Below, piece after piece: positions 15,584 to 24,110 of a DNA stretch of 54,234 nt. A program made the translations under genes and the position numbers. Under the pieces are notes generated by a model that worked only from the letters and a program-made list of their open reading frames with translations, searched no databases and was not told the origin of the DNA. Within the stretch, counting starts at the first letter, position 1. Every line of letters begins with the position of its first letter. Source of the stretch: Candidatus Peregrinibacteria bacterium CG_4_10_14_0_2_um_filter_38_24 (GTDB lineage Bacteria; Patescibacteriota; Gracilibacteria; UBA1369; LOWO2-01-FULL-3); NCBI GenBank assembly GCA_002792535.1, contig PFOM01000019.1:1-54234 (forward strand), written 5' to 3'.

Positions 15584-16774
15584 ATGGCAAAAGATAATAA
15601 AAACTTATTGGAAAGGGGAGTAGTAGAGGTTATCGTAAAAGAAGAACTTGAAAAAAAACTCAACTCAGGAAAAAAGTTAAGAATAAAATTTGGAATAGAC
15701 CCAACGGGATCCGATTTGCATATTGGACACGGAGTTGTTCTTAGAAAATTAAAACAATTTCAAGACAGGGGAGACACAGCAATTTTGCTAATAGGAGATT
15801 ATACCGCCAGAATAGGAGATCCTACGGGAAAATCTGAAACACGAAAAACGCTTACAGAAGAGCAAATCAAGGAAAACATGAAACACTACATAGAACAAGC
15901 TTCAAAAATTTTGGATCTAAAAAAACTAGAAATCAGATACAATTCCGAGTGGTTTGGAAAAATGAACATGGCCCAAATCCTTGAATTAACAACAAAAAGA
16001 ACAGTAAGCCAAATGCTTCAAAGAGAAGATTTCAAAAATCGATTAAAAAATAATCAAGACATTTCGGTTACAGAATTATTGTATCCTTTAATGCAAGGAT
16101 ATGACTCCGTTATGCTCGAATCAGACGTAGAACTCGGCGGAACAGATCAAACATTCAACATGCTCGTGGGCCGCGATATGCAAAAAAACTACGGATGTAA
16201 AACAATTCAAGACATCATCACCGTGCCAATTCTGGAAGGAACAGACGGAATCGAAAAAATGAGTAAAACGTACAATAACTATATTGGTTTTTCAGAAAGT
16301 CCAAAAGAAATTTACGGAAAAGCCATGTCTATTCCAGACAATATGATTATAAAGTATTTTGAATTAGCGACAGAAATCTCATTTGAAGATCTAAAAACTA
16401 TCGAAAAAGCCCTGAAACAAGGCGAAAACCCAAAGAATCTAAAAATGCGCCTCGCAAGAGAACTTGTAGCGCTATATCATGATAAAAAATCAGCGGAAAC
16501 AGCAGAAAAAGAATTTACAGAAATATTTTCGAACAAAGGAAAACCTGAAGAAATAGAAAAAATCAAACTTTCCGGAAAAATACACAAACTAGTAGATTTA
16601 TTAGTGGAAACAAAACTAACAACTTCAAAAGGCGAAGCAAGAAGACTCATCGAACAAGGAGGATTAAAAGTCGATGATGAAAAAATAATAGACATAAATG
16701 CTGAATTAGACACAAGCAAAGAACGCCTAATCCAAGCTGGAAAAAGGAAATTTATAAAAGTGATCGGCAAATAA
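15584..16774 (+). CDS. tyrS: Tyrosyl-tRNA synthetase
   Basis: TyrRS charges tRNA-Tyr. The 396 residues show the class I signature HIGH at 46-49 (DLHIGHG), the tyrosine pocket segment QGYDSVMLESDVELGGTDQTFN, and KMSKT at 225-229 in place of KMSKS. A C-terminal S4 RNA-binding domain follows (about 330-396, with TTSKGEARRLIEQGGLKVD). Length and motifs match the TyrZ-like branch. Its TAA overlaps the recG ATG by one base. Confidence 0.95.
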   Translation: MAKDNKNLLERGVVEVIVKEELEKKLNSGKKLRIKFGIDPTGSDLHIGHGVVLRKLKQFQDRGDTAILLIGDYTARIGDPTGKSETRKTLTEEQIKENMKHYIEQASKILDLKKLEIRYNSEWFGKMNMAQILELTTKRTVSQMLQREDFKNRLKNNQDISVTELLYPLMQGYDSVMLESDVELGGTDQTFNMLVGRDMQKNYGCKTIQDIITVPILEGTDGIEKMSKTYNNYIGFSESPKEIYGKAMSIPDNMIIKYFELATEISFEDLKTIEKALKQGENPKNLKMRLARELVALYHDKKSAETAEKEFTEIFSNKGKPEEIEKIKLSGKIHKLVDLLVETKLTTSKGEARRLIEQGGLKVDDEKIIDINAELDTSKERLIQAGKRKFIKVIGK

Positions 16775-18819
16775 TGCTTCAAAAAAATCTCGAAAAAGTC
16801 TTAAGGACTACAAAGAAACACATAGAGAAATTGTCTTCTCTTGGGGTAAAAACAGTTGAAGATTTACTTCTTTATTTTCCGCGTGACTACAACGACACAC
16901 GTGAATTCACAAAAATAAAAGACATCATTCCAAATGAAGTAAACACTATAAAAGGCAAACTGACTTCACTCTTTAACATAAACACAAAATTCGGAAAAAA
17001 AATAACACGCGGAATATTCACAGACTCAACAGGTTCAATCGAAATAGTTTGGTTCAACCAACCACATTTAACAAGAATGCTTCCTAGAAACAAAGAAATT
17101 ATTCTAAGCGGAAAAGCAAAAATAGGTTTCAACAAAATAGCTATTCAGAATCCATCTCATGAAATAATAAAACCATACGAAGATCAAATTCACAGCGGCA
17201 TAATTGCTCCTGTATATCACGAAACTGAAGGCATAACATCAAAGTGGATAAGAGAAAAAATAAAACCGATTGTAGATAAATGGTTATCCTTTTTTGAAGA
17301 ACACTTACCGGAAGAAATATTAAGAGAACACAATTTGATGGGCATTAGAGAAGCAATAAAAAATGTACATTTTCCAGAAAGCGAAAAACTTTTACTACTA
17401 GCAAGAGAACGTCTCGGATTTGACGAACTTTTCATTCTACAATTAAAAGTTTTACAAAGAAAATGGCATTGGCAACATGCGACGCAGTCGCAAGCAAAGA
17501 ACATAGAAATTAAAACAGAAATACTTAAAGAAGCAATTGAATCACTGCCATTTGAATTAACCAATGCCCAAACAAAATCACTTAAAGAAACTCTGTTGGA
17601 TTTTCAAAAACCGTACCCAGCAAGCAGACTAATTCAAGGAGACGTAGGCTCGGGAAAAACAGTTGTCGCCGCACTTGCCGCATTAAATGTAGTAAAAAAC
17701 GGCTACCAAGTGGCCATAATGGCCCCAACCGAAATCCTTGCAAAACAACACTATACCACATTTGTAAAAACATTAACAAAATATAATCTAAACATTCAGT
17801 TCATTTCTGGTTCAACAACAAAAAAAATGAAGGAAGACGTTGTTAGACAAATGAAAACCGGAACAGTCGACATAGTCATAGGAACCCATTCATTAATTCA
17901 AGAAGATATTGGATTTAGAAATCTTGGACTTGCAATTATAGATGAACAACACAGATTTGGAGTCAAACAACGAGAAATCTTAAAAAGTTATAATTCTCCG
18001 CATCTTCTAAGCATGACGGCAACACCAATTCCAAGAACGCTCGCAATCGTAGTTTACGGAGACCAAGATCTTTCAGTCATAGATGAAATGCCGAAAGGAA
18101 GACAAAAAATTATAACCAGAGTCGTTCCGGAAAACAAACGAACCGAAGCTTACAGATGGATCGAAGACCAAATAGCAAAAGGCAGACAAGCTTTCGTAAT
18201 TTGCCCACTAATAGACGAATCAGACACCATCGAAGTAAAATCAGTCGTCCAAGAATACGCACATTTACAAGAATTTATTTTCCCAAATCTAAAACTTGGA
18301 CTACTCCACGGAAGGCTTAAACAAGAGGAAAAAGACACAGTCATGGAAGATTTTAAAAACAATAAAATCAATATATTGGTTTCAACTTCAGTAGTCGAAG
18401 TCGGAATCGACGTACCAAACGCAACAATAATGCTCATAGAAGGATCCGAAAGATTTGGCTTATCCCAACTACATCAGTTTCGCGGAAGAGTAGGTAGGGG
18501 AGTGCATCAATCATATTGTTTTCTTTTCACCGGCAATTTATCAGACGAAGGAAAAACAAGAATGCAATCAATGGAAAAACACTCAAGTGGCTTTAAGCTA
18601 GCCGAAATCGATATGCAATTGAGGGGACCGGGTGAAGTTTATGGAGTACGCCAAAGCGGGATTCCAGATTTAAAAATGGCTAGCTTGACAGATTCAGTAA
18701 ATATCGAAAAAGCCAGAAACAGTGCGTCAAAAATTATAGATCAAGATCCATTGTTAAAAACATTCCCAAAATTAGCAGCAAAAATCACAGAAATTCAGGA
18801 AGTTTTCGTAAATGATTAA
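16774..18819 (+). CDS. recG: ATP-dependent DNA helicase RecG
   Basis: RecG remodels stalled forks and branched DNA. The 681 residues contain an N-terminal wedge/OB domain (about 60-150, YFPRDYNDTR onward) and a Walker A motif at 289-296 (GDVGSGKT). The DEQH box is at 390-393 (IDEQHRFGVKQR), followed by TATPIPRTLA. The second helicase lobe has TSVVEVGIDVPNA and QFRGRVGRG. A short TRG-like end follows. It is co-transcribed with tyrS (TAATG junction). Confidence 0.95.
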   Translation: MLQKNLEKVLRTTKKHIEKLSSLGVKTVEDLLLYFPRDYNDTREFTKIKDIIPNEVNTIKGKLTSLFNINTKFGKKITRGIFTDSTGSIEIVWFNQPHLTRMLPRNKEIILSGKAKIGFNKIAIQNPSHEIIKPYEDQIHSGIIAPVYHETEGITSKWIREKIKPIVDKWLSFFEEHLPEEILREHNLMGIREAIKNVHFPESEKLLLLARERLGFDELFILQLKVLQRKWHWQHATQSQAKNIEIKTEILKEAIESLPFELTNAQTKSLKETLLDFQKPYPASRLIQGDVGSGKTVVAALAALNVVKNGYQVAIMAPTEILAKQHYTTFVKTLTKYNLNIQFISGSTTKKMKEDVVRQMKTGTVDIVIGTHSLIQEDIGFRNLGLAIIDEQHRFGVKQREILKSYNSPHLLSMTATPIPRTLAIVVYGDQDLSVIDEMPKGRQKIITRVVPENKRTEAYRWIEDQIAKGRQAFVICPLIDESDTIEVKSVVQEYAHLQEFIFPNLKLGLLHGRLKQEEKDTVMEDFKNNKINILVSTSVVEVGIDVPNATIMLIEGSERFGLSQLHQFRGRVGRGVHQSYCFLFTGNLSDEGKTRMQSMEKHSSGFKLAEIDMQLRGPGEVYGVRQSGIPDLKMASLTDSVNIEKARNSASKIIDQDPLLKTFPKLAAKITEIQEVFVND

Positions 18820-18866
18820 AAAAATATAAAATTTTTATAAAGTTTTAAAAAAACTTCTCTAAAAAA

Positions 18867-18875
18867 TGATATAAT
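18867..18875 (+). promoter_or_regulatory. Extended -10 promoter of the orphan transcription unit
   Basis: TGATATAAT matches the extended -10 consensus (TGnTATAAT) exactly. No good -35 lies 17 bp upstream, where the sequence is A-rich. Transcription should start near GGG at 18879-18881. Confidence 0.55.
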
Positions 18876-18878
18876 TAA

Positions 18879-19217
18879 GGGTTGCATTAAAACGCTCCAA
18901 TAAGCCAGAAACAAGACTTCCGAAATTTTAAACAGACGACTAAACCCCCATCTTTTTTATTTAAAGGCCTTAAAACGCAAATTTTTAGCCCCATTTTTAT
19001 CTAAGTTTTACAACAAAAGGGGAATAAGGCAAGAAACCGAAAAAGTACAACAAAAGAGTGTAAAAAATCATCAAGACCCGCACAACAGAAAATAACAAAT
19101 AAAAAACGACATTCTTTAAAAAAGAAGCCAACTAACCAAAAGCATACAAAATAACATTCTAAACAGAAAATCAACCTAGGTTCGCACAAGATACATTGTG
19201 CAAACCTTTTTCTTTTT
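18879..19217 (+). ncRNA. Candidate structured non-coding RNA of unknown family
   Basis: This gene-free stretch between recG (+) and elp3 (-) has a perfect extended -10 promoter at its 5' side and a strong intrinsic terminator at its 3' side, with no ORF on the plus strand. The predicted transcript is about 335 nt. Helices visible by eye are GGGTT (18879-18883) with AACCC (18943-18947), and GCCTTA (18967-18972) with TAAGGC (19025-19030) enclosing CCCC (18989-18992) with GGGG (19019-19022). It lacks the tRNA-like ends of tmRNA, the conserved core of RNase P RNA and the SRP apical loop. Structure prediction and RNA-family searches were not possible here. Confidence 0.45.
19179..19217 (+). terminator. 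Rho-independent terminator of the orphan transcription unit
   Basis: GGTTCGCACAA (19179-19189) pairs with TTGTGCAAACC (19196-19206) over 11 positions with one mismatch, around a 6-nt loop. TTTTTCTTTTT follows at 19207-19217. The T tract is only on the plus-strand side, so it ends plus-strand transcription. It runs 2 bp into the elp3 stop codon. Confidence 0.85.
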
Positions 19218-20841
19218 ATATTCCCTTTAACATATATGTACCTTTGATTCTATATCCTAACTTTTTATAATACTCTCTTGTCCCAATCCCCGCTATAACA
19301 GCGATTTTTTTGTATCCATTCTTTTTTGAAAAATCTTCCGCATACTTCATAAGCTTAGATCCAAGCCCACCGTGCTGCTTTTCTTTTCCACTCCTCTTCC
19401 CCACCGCCACTTGTTTTCCATAAACATGGATTTCTCTCACCAACGAAGCATTTTTTAATTCAGGAATAAACGTTTTATGGGCGAATCTAAGCCTTAAAAG
19501 GGCTATAATCTTATCCTGTTTTGGATCTTCAAAAGAAATAAAAAACTCCTTTCCGCCATTTGCATCGTATTCACGAACAACCAATTTCACATCTTTATTC
19601 TTAAATGTTTCATTTTTTATTTCACGTGCACGTATTTCACGAAAAGTTTTTCCAGTTCTTTTCATGAGTTTCTGTTCAAGAATTTGCCTTATATTAGACA
19701 CTTTTGAACCTGCAGTAATTTCATCAGAAGGAATATCCCTAGCAACACGATCAACTCGACACCATTCCGGCACAGATAACATTTCCACCAAAAGAACCTC
19801 TTCAAGAGTTGCATCATCATAAGGTTGATATTCCCCACGTTTGAAAATATAAAAAAGCTGAGCCTTTGGCACCACAACACAAGGATATATCTTTAAATAA
19901 TCAGGCTGAAACCCAGAATCAGTGAAAAGTTCTCCAACCATTTTCTTGTCAAAATCTGGCGTAGATCCAGGCAAATTCGGCATCATATGATAACCAATTT
20001 TAAATCCACTGTCTTTTAGTAAACCGGTCGCATCTTTCACCGCATTTAAATCATGGCCTCGCTTAGTCAATTTTTGTATTTTTTCATCTGTAGTTTGAAC
20101 CCCCATCTCAACTTTAGTAACTCCAAGCATTCTCAAACGTTTAACTTCAGCTTTATTGATATAATCAGGTCTTGTTTCAATATTAACTCCAATACATCGA
20201 ACCTCAGCAGTCTCATTTATCTTTACTACATAAGCAAAAGAAAGATTTTTCTTAAAAGGTTTCTTCCCAAGAACAAGCAAAGGAAAATCATTCATTGCTA
20301 GTAAACATCTCTTCACGAACCAAGTCTGATAAGCTTTTGGATAAAAACTAAAAGTCCCTCCAATAACACGCAATTCAACTTTTGAAACTTCATGCCCAGT
20401 CATAGTTAGAGCCTTTAACCTAACAAAAACCTGAGTATAAGGATCAAAATCTTGAGAAAAAGCACGTTGTGCCGCAGGTTGCGATTGCAAATAACTCTTC
20501 GGCATTCTTATATCTGTCGGACAATAAATACACTTTCCAGGACATGGATAAGGCTTAGTAAGGACCGTAACAGGCGTTACACCACTCAATGTTCGCACTC
20601 CCCTCTTTCTTAATAAAGAAAGAAGAGCAGGATTATTTTTTATTTTCTTCTCTTTCAATAAATCATAATACGCTTTAATAAAATAAAGATTATGGAAAAC
20701 TTTACCTTTAAATTCTTTTATAATTCCATTCCTGAAATGCTCGAAATCCCCTCTTCTTGCAAAAGTTTTTTTTGAAGCCGCCATTATCACATTCCTGGCG
20801 ATCTCCTGATTATCATCTAGATTTAAATTCGCGAAATCCAT
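19216..20841 (-). CDS. elp3: Elp3-type radical SAM/acetyltransferase (tRNA wobble uridine modification)
   Basis: Elp3 uses a radical-SAM Fe-S cluster and acetyl-CoA to place a carboxymethyl group on C5 of wobble uridine in tRNA. The 541 residues include a CxxxCxxC cluster (Cys100, Cys104, Cys107) in PCPGKCIYCP. Elp3 signature segments follow (DPYTQVFVRLKALTMTGHEVSKVEL, VIGGTFSFYP, GVNIETRPDYI, EMGVQTTDEKI), then a C-terminal GNAT domain (about 420-541, GGLGSKLMKYAE, GTREYYKKLGYR). I chose ATG at 20841; the frame also opens 9 bp earlier with TTG. It is divergent from a Trm9-like methyltransferase gene. Confidence 0.94.
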   Translation of the reverse strand: MDFANLNLDDNQEIARNVIMAASKKTFARRGDFEHFRNGIIKEFKGKVFHNLYFIKAYYDLLKEKKIKNNPALLSLLRKRGVRTLSGVTPVTVLTKPYPCPGKCIYCPTDIRMPKSYLQSQPAAQRAFSQDFDPYTQVFVRLKALTMTGHEVSKVELRVIGGTFSFYPKAYQTWFVKRCLLAMNDFPLLVLGKKPFKKNLSFAYVVKINETAEVRCIGVNIETRPDYINKAEVKRLRMLGVTKVEMGVQTTDEKIQKLTKRGHDLNAVKDATGLLKDSGFKIGYHMMPNLPGSTPDFDKKMVGELFTDSGFQPDYLKIYPCVVVPKAQLFYIFKRGEYQPYDDATLEEVLLVEMLSVPEWCRVDRVARDIPSDEITAGSKVSNIRQILEQKLMKRTGKTFREIRAREIKNETFKNKDVKLVVREYDANGGKEFFISFEDPKQDKIIALLRLRFAHKTFIPELKNASLVREIHVYGKQVAVGKRSGKEKQHGGLGSKLMKYAEDFSKKNGYKKIAVIAGIGTREYYKKLGYRIKGTYMLKGI

Positions 20842-20849
20842 ATAAAACA

Positions 20850-20857
20850 ATTATAAT
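20850..20857. promoter_or_regulatory. Palindromic -10 element shared by elp3 and the Trm9-like gene
   Basis: ATTATAAT is self-complementary and reads TATAAT on both strands. The Trm9-like ATG starts 6 nt after the plus-strand copy and the elp3 ATG 8 nt after the minus-strand copy. The starts are only 22 bp apart, so any -35 boxes lie inside the opposite coding regions. Both messages would have no or almost no leader. Confidence 0.6.
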
Positions 20858-20863
20858 GGATAC

Positions 20864-21538
20864 ATGCGGGAAAAAACAGCAATTAGCTTGTTAAAAAAAG
20901 TAAAAAAAGACTATACGGAAATTTCCGAAGAGTTTGATAGAACAAGAAAAAACAAATGGGAAGAGTTTGATATTTTTTTGAAATACATAAAAGAGAAACA
21001 CACGGTTGCCGATATAGGATGTGGAAACGGAAGATTTTATGAGTTTCTAAAAAAACACAAAACAACGAAATACATAGGCATAGATAATAACAAAAAACTA
21101 CTAGAGAAAGCCAAAAAAGAAAAGAATGCGAAATTCATAAAAGGAGACCTTTTGAAAATTCCACTCAAAAAAGAAAGCGTAAACGTAGTACTGGAAATCG
21201 CATCACTTCACCACATTCCGTCAAAAAAATTAAGAGAAAAAGCTATAAAAGAAGTAAACAGAGTTCTCAAAAAAAATGGAATTTTCATAGTCAGCGTGTG
21301 GAATTTATCCCAACCAAAATATAAAAAATACATAAAGAAAGCCTTCCTTAAGTCAATTTTGACACTAGGAAAATACGATCCTAGAGACACTTTTATCCCC
21401 TGGGCAAAAAAAGCCGAAAGATATTATTACGCATTCAAAGAAAACGAACTTAAAAGATTGCTAGAAACACACAATTTCGAAATAATAGAGCAAGAAAAAA
21501 ATAACAACATAGTTTTCATATGCAAAAAGAAGAAATAA
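20864..21538 (+). CDS. Trm9/ALKBH8-like tRNA wobble-uridine methyltransferase
   Basis: This is a 224-residue class I SAM methyltransferase. Motif I is DIGCGNG (residues 50-56), and IASLHHIPS follows. Several segments match the Trm9 family specifically: EFDRTRKNKW (23-32, Trm9 has IAxxFxxTRxxxW), DTFIPW (175-180, Trm9 DVFVPW) and RYYYAFKENEL (186-196, Trm9 RYYHxFxEGEL). Trm9 methyl-esterifies cm5U made by Elp3 to mcm5U. Its position divergent from elp3 around one symmetric -10 supports the same pathway. No Trm112 partner is visible. The 3' end overlaps the glycosyltransferase gene by 19 bp. Confidence 0.82.
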   Translation: MREKTAISLLKKVKKDYTEISEEFDRTRKNKWEEFDIFLKYIKEKHTVADIGCGNGRFYEFLKKHKTTKYIGIDNNKKLLEKAKKEKNAKFIKGDLLKIPLKKESVNVVLEIASLHHIPSKKLREKAIKEVNRVLKKNGIFIVSVWNLSQPKYKKYIKKAFLKSILTLGKYDPRDTFIPWAKKAERYYYAFKENELKRLLETHNFEIIEQEKNNNIVFICKKKK

Positions 21539-22344
21539 AAATATTAGGAGTAAATTTCAGTGACACAACTCTGGAGAAAGCGACAGAACAAGCCTTAAAG
21601 TGGGCAAAAGAAAATTTTAAAACATATATCGCAACCCCAAATCCGGAAATGCTTCTTGAAACAATAAAAAATCCAAAATTCTTGCAAGTACTAAATGAGT
21701 CAGGACTAAACATTCCAGACGGCACAGGAATTTTATGGGCAAGCACTTACACTTCAAAAATTAAAAAAGATTCATCGAAATTAGCAAAAATATTAAAAGC
21801 AGTCCAAACTCTATTTTTTGGCTTAATAAAGCCAAAATCAATAAGACTTATCTTAAAAGAACGCGTAACCGGCATAGATTTAATGCTGGAAATTTGTAAA
21901 AAATCCGGAGAAGAAAATCTAAAAATATTTTTACTTGGAGCAAGCGAAAAAACAGGAGAAAAAACAAAACAAAAACTTCAAGAAAAATACCCAAATATAA
22001 AAATCACAGGAAGAATGAGTAAAAGTCCAAAAGAAGAAGACGAAAAAGAAATAATAGAAGAAATAAATCGCTCAAGCGCAGATATCTTATTTGTAGCATA
22101 TGGAGCCCCAAATCAAGAATCATGGATAGCGAAAAACTTGCCAAAATTAACTTCCGTAAAGGTAGCAATCGGTGTTGGCGGAGCATTCGACTTCATTGCC
22201 GGCATCAAAAAAAGAGCCCCAAAAATATTCAGGAAGATAGGACTAGAATGGCTAATAAGGCTTATTCAAGAGCCAAAACGAATCAAAAGAATATGGAACG
22301 CAGTAATCAAGTTCCCCTACGAAATAATAAAGAAAACAAAATAA
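21520..22344 (+). CDS. WecG/TagA/CpsF-family glycosyltransferase
   Basis: Members transfer N-acetylmannosamine-type sugars to lipid-linked GlcNAc in cell-wall or envelope polysaccharide synthesis. The 274 residues show TPNPEMLLE and the IPDGTGILWA motif with the catalytic Asp. VTGIDLM, IFLLGASEKTGE, VAYGAPNQESWI and GVGGAFDFIAGIKKRAP follow, all conserved in the family. The C-terminal basic amphipathic region (LIRLIQEPKRIKRIW) is the membrane-association element. The 5' end overlaps the methyltransferase gene by 19 bp. Confidence 0.93.
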   Translation: MQKEEIKILGVNFSDTTLEKATEQALKWAKENFKTYIATPNPEMLLETIKNPKFLQVLNESGLNIPDGTGILWASTYTSKIKKDSSKLAKILKAVQTLFFGLIKPKSIRLILKERVTGIDLMLEICKKSGEENLKIFLLGASEKTGEKTKQKLQEKYPNIKITGRMSKSPKEEDEKEIIEEINRSSADILFVAYGAPNQESWIAKNLPKLTSVKVAIGVGGAFDFIAGIKKRAPKIFRKIGLEWLIRLIQEPKRIKRIWNAVIKFPYEIIKKTK

Positions 22345-22345
22345 A

Positions 22346-22624
22346 TTATTTCTTTTTGGGTGCAACCTTCCCAGCATTCATTTTCTTATCTATAAACATC
22401 TCTATGTAAGGACGAATCTTCTCTACGATAAATTCAATAGCCATAAGAGGTTGAGCTATTGTCGTGTGAATTTTAGCAACAGTAGTCTTGATTTCCTCAC
22501 TAACATGCGAAAAATCACGAAGAATTAAAATCGCATAAAAAAGCGTAATACATAAAAATATGACAAGAACAAGGAAACCTATAGCCAACGAGATATTCAA
22601 AATATCTGCAGAAGTTGAAAACAT
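22346..22624 (-). CDS. Small single-pass membrane protein, unknown function
   Basis: The 92 residues have one N-terminal transmembrane helix (about 10-35), an amphipathic helical region (HVSEEIKTTVAKIHTTI, about 40-72) and a basic tail ending in KVAPKKK. The layout resembles DUF948-like proteins but the match is not firm. The gene follows gatB on the same strand after a 40-bp gap and may be the last gene of that operon. Confidence 0.6.
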   Translation of the reverse strand: MFSTSADILNISLAIGFLVLVIFLCITLFYAILILRDFSHVSEEIKTTVAKIHTTIAQPLMAIEFIVEKIRPYIEMFIDKKMNAGKVAPKKK

Positions 22625-22664
22625 AGGAAAAAGATTAAGGAGATAAAACCAAAAGAATAATAAC

Positions 22665-24110
22665 TCAAATAATCAGCTTCTTCAAGACTTCATTTACCAT
22701 TTGGGGATTCGCCTTACCTCTTGATTTTTTCATAGCCTGACCGACAAGAAACGCCATCGCCTTATCTTTCCCCGCTTTAACATCCGCAACAGGCCCTGCA
22801 TTCTCCGCTATAACTTCATTACAAACACGTTCAATTTCCGAAGTATCAGAAACTTGCATCAGCCCCTTCTCCTCAACAATTTGAGAAGGAGAAACCCCAT
22901 TTTCATACATATCATCAAACACCTCACCCTTCGCAGTATTATTTGAAATAACATTTGAACTAACAAGTTTTATTAATTCTGCCATCATTTCCGGAGAGAT
23001 TTTTTGCTGACTTATTTCAACTAAATCTTCCTTTAATTTTGCAATCAAAATTGTAGTAATAAAAGAAGCCGCCTTTTTCGCATCTTCACAAATCTCAACA
23101 ACTTTCTCAAAATAAGCAGCCATTATTGGATCATCTGAGAGTATTCTCGCTTCATCCTCAGAAATTCCGAAATCTTCTGTATATTTTTTTCTCTTAACAT
23201 TTGGCAACTCAGGCAAATTTTTCTTTATTTCCGAAACCAATTTTCCATCCAAAACAAGAATAGGCAAATCAGGTTCTGGAAAATACCTATAATCATCACT
23301 TTCCTCCTTATCTCTCATGAAATATGTTTCTTTCTTTTCATCATTCCACCCCATCGTAATGGGAGATTTTAAAGAATTTCCCTCTTCCCATGCACTAATT
23401 TGTCGAGCAATTTCATAATCAATCGCATTCTCAAGCATCTTAAAAGAATTCAAATTCTTTATTTCAGCACGTGGATAAAGTTTTGTTTCTCCTTTTGGTC
23501 GGATAGAAACACTCGCATCAAAACGCATCATCCCCTTCTCCATATCCGCATCACTACTTCCAACGTAACGAACTATCTTCTGAATCTCTCGAGCATAAGC
23601 CGAAGCTTCCTGTGCATTATGCATGTCAGGCTCAGAAACAATCTCCATAAGCGGCGTCCCCGCCCTATTGAAATCGACCAAAGATCCGTCACGAACATGC
23701 GTCAATTTTCCGGCATCATCTTCCAAATGCAAACGCGTAATCCCAACCCTAACCTTCTTCACATTATTTTCGCCATCACGAATTTCAACCTCTATAAAGC
23801 CATTTTTCGACACAGGCTCATCATATTGAGAAATCTGAAATCCTTTTGGATTATCGGGATAAAAATAATTTTTTCTATCAAATTTTGAATGCAACTGAAT
23901 TTCACAATTAAGAGCAAGCGCAGCACTTACCCCTTTTTTCACAGCCTCTTCGTTAACAACAGGAAGCTGACCCGGAAACCCCATGCAAATAGGACAGGCA
24001 TTTATATTTGCCTCTTTATCAAAAGAATCATTATCGCATCCACAAAACATTTTAGTTTTTGTAGACATTTGTGCGTGAATTTCTAGTCCTATAACAACTT
24101 CAAATTCCAT
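22665..24110 (-). CDS. gatB: Aspartyl/glutamyl-tRNA amidotransferase subunit B
   Basis: GatB, with GatA and GatC, converts Glu-tRNA(Gln) or Asp-tRNA(Asn) to the amidated form. The 481 residues begin FEVVIGLEIHAQMSTKTKMFCGC and have the zinc-site cysteines (CGC and CPIC near residues 23-42). RKNYFYPDNPKGFQISQY, the LHLEDDAGK segment, and the C-terminal YqeY-like tail domain with NPQMVNEVL complete the family pattern. gatA and gatC are not adjacent. It follows coaE after 9 bp. Confidence 0.96.
   Translation of the reverse strand: MEFEVVIGLEIHAQMSTKTKMFCGCDNDSFDKEANINACPICMGFPGQLPVVNEEAVKKGVSAALALNCEIQLHSKFDRKNYFYPDNPKGFQISQYDEPVSKNGFIEVEIRDGENNVKKVRVGITRLHLEDDAGKLTHVRDGSLVDFNRAGTPLMEIVSEPDMHNAQEASAYAREIQKIVRYVGSSDADMEKGMMRFDASVSIRPKGETKLYPRAEIKNLNSFKMLENAIDYEIARQISAWEEGNSLKSPITMGWNDEKKETYFMRDKEESDDYRYFPEPDLPILVLDGKLVSEIKKNLPELPNVKRKKYTEDFGISEDEARILSDDPIMAAYFEKVVEICEDAKKAASFITTILIAKLKEDLVEISQQKISPEMMAELIKLVSSNVISNNTAKGEVFDDMYENGVSPSQIVEEKGLMQVSDTSEIERVCNEVIAENAGPVADVKAGKDKAMAFLVGQAMKKSRGKANPQMVNEVLKKLII

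Follow-up and report, generated by a model that had tools for sequence, protein, structure and literature searches.

The xm5 side chain of the tRNA wobble uridine (U34) has been treated as a signature of the domains of life, being made by MnmE and MnmG (MnmEG) in bacteria and by Elongator and Trm9 in eukaryotes. The eukaryotic Elp3-Trm9 pathway to 5-methoxycarbonylmethyluridine or its 2-thio form, mcm5(s2)U34, is established and runs from Elongator through Trm9/ALKBH8 and Trm112, Trm112 being the obligate partner of Trm9. Elp3 and Trm9 were also predicted in some archaea, for example as HVO_1032/HVO_0574 of Haloferax volcanii, and their genes are clustered in Sulfolobus solfataricus (PMC2584109, PMC5372719). 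A review of 2017 stated that no relatives of Trm112-dependent methyltransferases are detectable in bacterial genomes (PMC5372719). Here we describe an elp3 gene and a gene for a Trm9-type, S-adenosylmethionine (SAM)-dependent methyltransferase, which lie head to head in the window, i.e., the whole 54,234-nucleotide contig PFOM01000019.1 of Candidatus Peregrinibacteria bacterium CG_4_10_14_0_2_um_filter_38_24, a member of the candidate phyla radiation (CPR, or Patescibacteria). Many of the ultra-small CPR bacteria appear to have swapped the standard bacterial wobble system for an archaeal/eukaryote-type pair of Elp3 and a Trm9-like enzyme with neighbouring genes, apparently with no need of Trm112. 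The features of the pair are as follows.

19216 to 20841, minus strand: elp3, a radical SAM and GNAT (lysine acetyltransferase, KAT) enzyme of 541 amino acids (aa), the predicted maker of 5-carboxymethyluridine (cm5U) at tRNA position 34.

20842 to 20863, no strand: the divergent spacer of 22 bp, with a symmetric -10-like element, ATTATAAT, at 20850-20857.

20864 to 21538, plus strand: the Trm9-type SAM methyltransferase of 224 aa, predicted to carry out the methyl-esterification of cm5U34 to mcm5U34.

Both open reading frames (ORFs) are intact, elp3 reading from its ATG at 20841 down to 19216, with an alternative start possible at a TTG at 20850. The ATG-to-ATG gap of 22 bp agrees with the original prediction, an earlier reading of the window from its letters, and the four segments listed there (EFDRTRKNKW, DIGCGNG, DTFIPW and RYYYAFKENEL) are all found in the methyltransferase translation. 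The window genome (G000) comprises 1.10 Mb in 43 contigs and is 98.5% complete; by Elp3 and methyltransferase similarity, its nearest named relatives are Peregrinibacteria/Gracilibacteria.

The window Elp3 scores 551.9 bits against TIGR01211 (cut-off 350), and its residues 61-539 align with Elp3 of Methanocaldococcus infernus at 401 bits. Acetyl-CoA hydrolysis by Elp3 requires K150, K266, Q/E461 and Y517 of MinElp3 (PMC6367351). The window protein holds K154, K281, E470 and Y524 at the acetyl-CoA (KAT) site, with a glutamate at 470 as in the Dehalococcoides protein, as well as the Fe-S cysteines C100/C104/C107, and the Fe-S and KAT-site positions are kept in 82-83 of 83 CPR Elp3s. About 75 residues precede the radical SAM core, an extended N-terminus that measures 60-89 residues in 80 of the 83 CPR proteins and was described for archaea and eukaryotes (PMC6367351). 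Bacterial and archaeal Elp3s were described as having three invariant Zn-cysteines in the linker (PMC6367351). In the window protein these are lost, with F400/E402/A405 at the corresponding positions; the full set is found in 63/83 CPR Elp3s and is incomplete in the other 20, as in eukaryotes. The CPR Elp3s form one clade in a tree (SH-aLRT, an approximate likelihood-ratio support, of 99), and the window Elp3 is predicted, by analogy, to make cm5U34.

Used as a single-sequence query, the methyltransferase matches many methyltransferases, with yeast Trm9 (5cm2_Z) third but aligned through the C-terminal half. A profile built from 22 orthologs of the same order (A1) has 5cm2_Z as its best match in the PDB, ahead of all other chains (E=7.8e-23, 84 bits), and the alignment spans 26-222, hence including the C-terminal half with the xPW and RYY lid strands. 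The AlphaFold model of the enzyme (mean predicted local distance difference test score, pLDDT, 97.1) likewise has 5cm2_Z as its top Foldseek match in the PDB, with a template modelling (TM) score of 0.82 by target length, and its strands 175-180 and 184-189 coincide with the position of the two-stranded lid in Trm9. In yeast Trm9, the substitutions R29A, H115A, R241A, Y243A and N271A impair tRNA binding (PMC5372719). All five residues are present in the window enzyme, as R28, H116, R186, Y188 and N215. The yeast sequence compared here, which we take to be that of S. cerevisiae Trm9, fits the five published residue numbers and the printed 5cm2, and the conclusions do not depend on it alone. All five residues are found in 15/15 archaeal homologs and four or five of them in 47/50 CPR homologs, against three or fewer in 27 of 28 generic methyltransferases. 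Taken together, sequence and model place the protein as a Trm9-type enzyme rather than a generic UbiE-like one. A divergent branch was also observed whose W, RYS and N motifs resemble those of Trm9 but which has neither R28 nor Y188 (loci L154 and L156, genomes G122 and G163, family f25).

In a maximum-likelihood tree of 97 rows, the 28 generic paralogs split from the CPR, archaeal and eukaryotic Trm9 sequences (support 90/83). The yeast Trm9s and the archaeal homologs make up one clade (99/96); the CPR methyltransferases form one group, with weak to modest support (86/29), which is sister to that clade and not inside it. The CPR and archaeal rows were retrieved with the family profile, so that their grouping is partly due to selection; the yeast sequences, which were not used in retrieval, still fall with them. 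The original prediction had called for such a tree, which bears out its view of a methyltransferase with Trm9-specific segments and not just generic SAM motifs, as do the profile and fold matches and the five residues. For the pathway that it described as ‘eukaryote-like’, ‘archaeal/eukaryote-type’ is the better label, because Elp3 and Trm9 were already predicted in archaea and are clustered in S. solfataricus. Since Elp3 and the methyltransferase each have a CPR branch of their own, with several CPR lineages represented, there is no sign of a recent transfer from a eukaryote, which is unlikely; the sequences fit an old module instead. It is worth noting that CPR-type methyltransferases also occur on contigs labelled as other phyla, L089 (Ignavibacteriales SURF_28, which has a divergent elp3 too) and L109 (Omnitrophota KR13_N1), owing either to mis-binning or to transfer.

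The pairing of the two genes is conserved. In the relatives set of 60 genomes, Elp3 is present in 58, and the methyltransferase lies divergently beside elp3 in 26 of 29 of the relatives' elp3 loci, which range from genus to order. A scan of 84,980 species genomes for the methyltransferase only gave 80 named loci, which cover Peregrini-, Gracili-, Parcu-, Magasanik-, Nealson-, Portnoy- and Komeilibacteria, among others; elp3 is found within 6 kb in 64 of them, divergently in 62 of those 64. Because 26/29 relatives and 64/80 loci retrieved by the methyltransferase hold both genes side by side, the pairing is not due to chance. Among 116 Patescibacteria genomes drawn evenly from the phylum, 31 have both proteins, none has the methyltransferase without Elp3, 16 have Elp3 only and 69 have neither (Fisher p 1e-16, kinship not corrected, the co-occurring genomes coming from more than 20 families). 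In this draw, the two genes diverge at a distance of up to 2.5 kb in 25 of the 31 genomes and of up to 3.5 kb in one more, and they are on different contigs in the other five. The co-occurrence count excludes two matches: that of G115, which falls in the generic set, and the high-scoring methyltransferase of G122 (L154), which belongs to the divergent branch where two of the five residues are missing and is found in a 78% complete genome with no Elp3 match. Hence the neighbourhood survey proposed in the original prediction shows a pair conserved both in relatives (26/29) and phylum-wide (31/31 with Elp3).

The competing MnmE/MnmG pathway, whose presence the original prediction had asked about, is absent from the window genome. 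Across the relatives set of 60 genomes, which includes the window genome, no MnmG exceeds the cut-off. In the phylum draw, MnmG is found in 5/116 genomes, none of which has Elp3 and none of which is among the 31 with the methyltransferase, and MnmE is over the cut-off in four genomes, all MnmG-positive. Thus MnmE/MnmG and Elp3 are mutually exclusive in the draw. The 2-thiolase MnmA is encoded in the window genome (G000:C8:30750-31673) and in 47/47 Elp3-positive genomes of the draw, including all 31 with the methyltransferase. With Elp3 in 47 and MnmG in 5 of the 116 genomes, over half of the draw has neither, so that many CPR bacteria may have no xm5U34 pathway of known type.

A search of 60 genomes for Trm112 (PF03966) came up empty in 59, and none was found in the window genome, while Haloferax and Sulfolobus were positive as control genomes; the original prediction, which saw no Trm112 partner, is borne out in a 98.5% complete genome. 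Elsewhere in the phylum, the few PF03966 matches all lie inside long ORFs of 286-758 aa, and a Pfam scan revealed no N-terminal Zn knuckle ahead of the 224-aa enzyme. Contact with Trm112 is made mainly through main-chain bonds (PMC5372719). As no Trm112 was found, either the enzyme would be Trm112-independent, as we infer, or an undetected protein fills the role. For the same reason, the enzyme is classed here as a variant of Trm9 type and not as Trm9 proper; most likely, it works in the same way.

From these elements, a hybrid pathway in place of MnmEG can be proposed, which we regard as highly probable. Elp3, which like its archaeal counterparts has no other Elongator subunits beside it, would form cm5U at position 34 using radical SAM chemistry and acetyl-CoA. 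The Trm9-type enzyme is predicted to methylate the carboxylate of cm5U with SAM, giving mcm5U34, and the bacterial-type MnmA, encoded elsewhere in the genome, would add the 2-thio group to yield mcm5s2U34 in split-box tRNAs. The three enzymes would thus replace MnmE/MnmG, apparently without a Trm112 activator. The reactions, the tRNA substrates and the final nucleoside, whether mcm5U or mcm5s2U, are predicted by analogy with the described systems. The functional link between the two genes that the original prediction had drawn is supported by the tree, the conserved pairing and the absence of MnmE/MnmG. A broader reading, which we hold to be somewhat favoured, is that much of the CPR uses this hybrid of an archaeal/eukaryote-type Elp3, a Trm112-independent single-subunit Trm9-type enzyme and MnmA to reach mcm5s2U34. 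It would be the first pathway to mcm5U in bacteria and a long-standing alternative to MnmEG.

Several observations weigh against the proposed pathway. The methyltransferase shares only about 21% identity with yeast Trm9; Y188 is replaced by V in 9/50 CPR homologs and H116 varies in 6/50; no Trm112 was found, though Trm9 needs it in eukaryotes; 16 of the 47 Elp3-positive genomes of the draw have no methyltransferase; and the methyltransferase is fused to a WecG-type glycosyltransferase in one sublineage. The low identity, the placement of the CPR sequences as a sister branch outside the clade of archaeal and eukaryotic Trm9, and the 16 genomes, in which an esterless cm5U is evidently viable, are consistent with the enzyme being a mere paralog of Trm9 that acts on another wobble uridine or RNA substrate (e.g., another base, or uridine 5-oxyacetic acid, cmo5U, the target of CmoM), the Elp3 product staying cm5U or becoming 5-carbamoylmethyluridine (ncm5U). 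We consider this unlikely, as the methyltransferase occurs only with Elp3 (31/31) and is divergently adjacent to it, holds all five Trm9 tRNA-binding residues and has no CmoM model among its best 25 NCBIfam matches. In the 16 genomes Elp3 works without the methyltransferase, and CPR families with Elp3 alone may stop at cm5U or ncm5U; families f30 and f35 of the draw have Elp3 and no Trm9-type methyltransferase.

The second alternative concerns the gene that follows the methyltransferase.

21520 to 22344, plus strand: a WecG/TagA/CpsF glycosyltransferase gene (Pfam PF03808), sharing 19 bp with the 3' end of the methyltransferase gene.

The methyltransferase could be the partner of this enzyme in the methylation of an envelope polysaccharide, the closeness of elp3 being a by-product of genome compaction. 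This is suggested by the overlap, by the position of WecG after the methyltransferase in Peregrinibacteria-type loci, by four loci in which both are a single ORF and by eight loci with the methyltransferase and WecG where no elp3 was found nearby. Most of the 62 divergent elp3-methyltransferase pairs have no WecG, making elp3 the wider partner of the methyltransferase, and the fused protein of L088 keeps, by eye, the TR, HH, RYY and N motifs; hence this reading seems very improbable. The single ORFs belong to some Peregrinibacteria/Gracilibacteria (L046:6001-7521, L088:5953-7464, L111:5965-7545 and L116:18-1616), and WecG neighbours the methyltransferase only in loci of this type. The WecG link is thus real in one lineage, including the four apparent fusions, yet narrower than the Elp3 link, and the WecG/TagA/CpsF gene probably lies outside the tRNA module. 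Lastly, a generic class I methyltransferase (UbiE/Methyltransf_11) with a chance resemblance to Trm9 is favoured by Pfam and NCBIfam giving only broad families (Methyltransf_11, UbiE-like), but was rejected as barely conceivable, since the enzyme scores too low for any of the NCBIfam models shown (67 bits against a cut-off of 155 at best; 55 against 158 and 52 against 216 for UbiE models) and is contradicted by the Trm9 profile and fold matches, the residue test and the tree.

Expression of the Elp3 and Trm9-type genes may also be linked. Being palindromic, the spacer element offers each gene a TATAAT, at a distance of 6 nt from the methyltransferase ATG and of 8 nt from that of elp3. In the 26 relatives' spacers, 6 exact copies of TATAAT stand 5-8 nt upstream of the methyltransferase ATG, versus 0.18 in simple shuffles, whereas these 26 spacers show no significant enrichment on the elp3 side. 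As the enrichment is limited to one side, a shared leaderless bidirectional promoter at the element is put forward as a suggestion only; the two genes would be co-expressed from it. A TATAAT 6-7 nt ahead of the methyltransferase ATG is kept in several relatives. The surrounding gene order, tyrS-recG-[elp3 / methyltransferase]-wecG-small ORF-gatB (15584-24110), is partly kept in other Peregrinibacteria-type loci (L037-L040, L053 and L078).

A relative of the Trm112-dependent methyltransferases is hence widespread in Patescibacteria, paired with Elp3 in genomes without MnmEG. The original prediction knew of no description of the pairing in Patescibacteria, and our searches on Elp3 in the CPR or Patescibacteria and on Trm9 in Parcubacteria found nothing relevant, nor any bacterial description, in a literature that did not cover most subscription papers and preprints. 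If true, the pathway would offer biochemistry a minimal form of a disease-relevant human pathway, with two proteins and apparently no Trm112, and it bears on the evolution and simplification of U34 decoding in CPR cells.

Compared with the described systems, the CPR pair shares with eukaryotic Elongator-Trm9-Trm112 the Elp3 catalytic residues, the Trm9 fold and the five tRNA-binding residues. It differs in being bacterial and in having divergent, adjacent genes; its single Elp3 presumably acts on its own, and no Trm112 was found. Thiolation is predicted to proceed via the bacterial MnmA, whereas the eukaryotic pathway uses eukaryotic thiolation proteins. With archaeal Elp3 and Trm9 it has in common the lack of Elp1/2/4/5/6, a Trm9 homolog, the clustering seen in one archaeon and the five residues (15/15), while Haloferax and Sulfolobus possess a Trm112-type PF03966 protein and the CPR Elp3s and methyltransferases form their own branches. 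The bacterial MnmE/MnmG (and MnmC) route to (c)mnm5(s2)U34, i.e., 5-(carboxymethyl)aminomethyl-(2-thio)uridine, has the same target base and shares MnmA, but MnmE and MnmG are absent from the window genome. Finally, Elp3 of Dehalococcoides mccartyi (DmcElp3), of known structure, is also a stand-alone bacterial Elp3; it has no long N-terminus (PMC6367351), unlike the CPR Elp3s, and the window Elp3 for its part is without the three linker Zn-cysteines.

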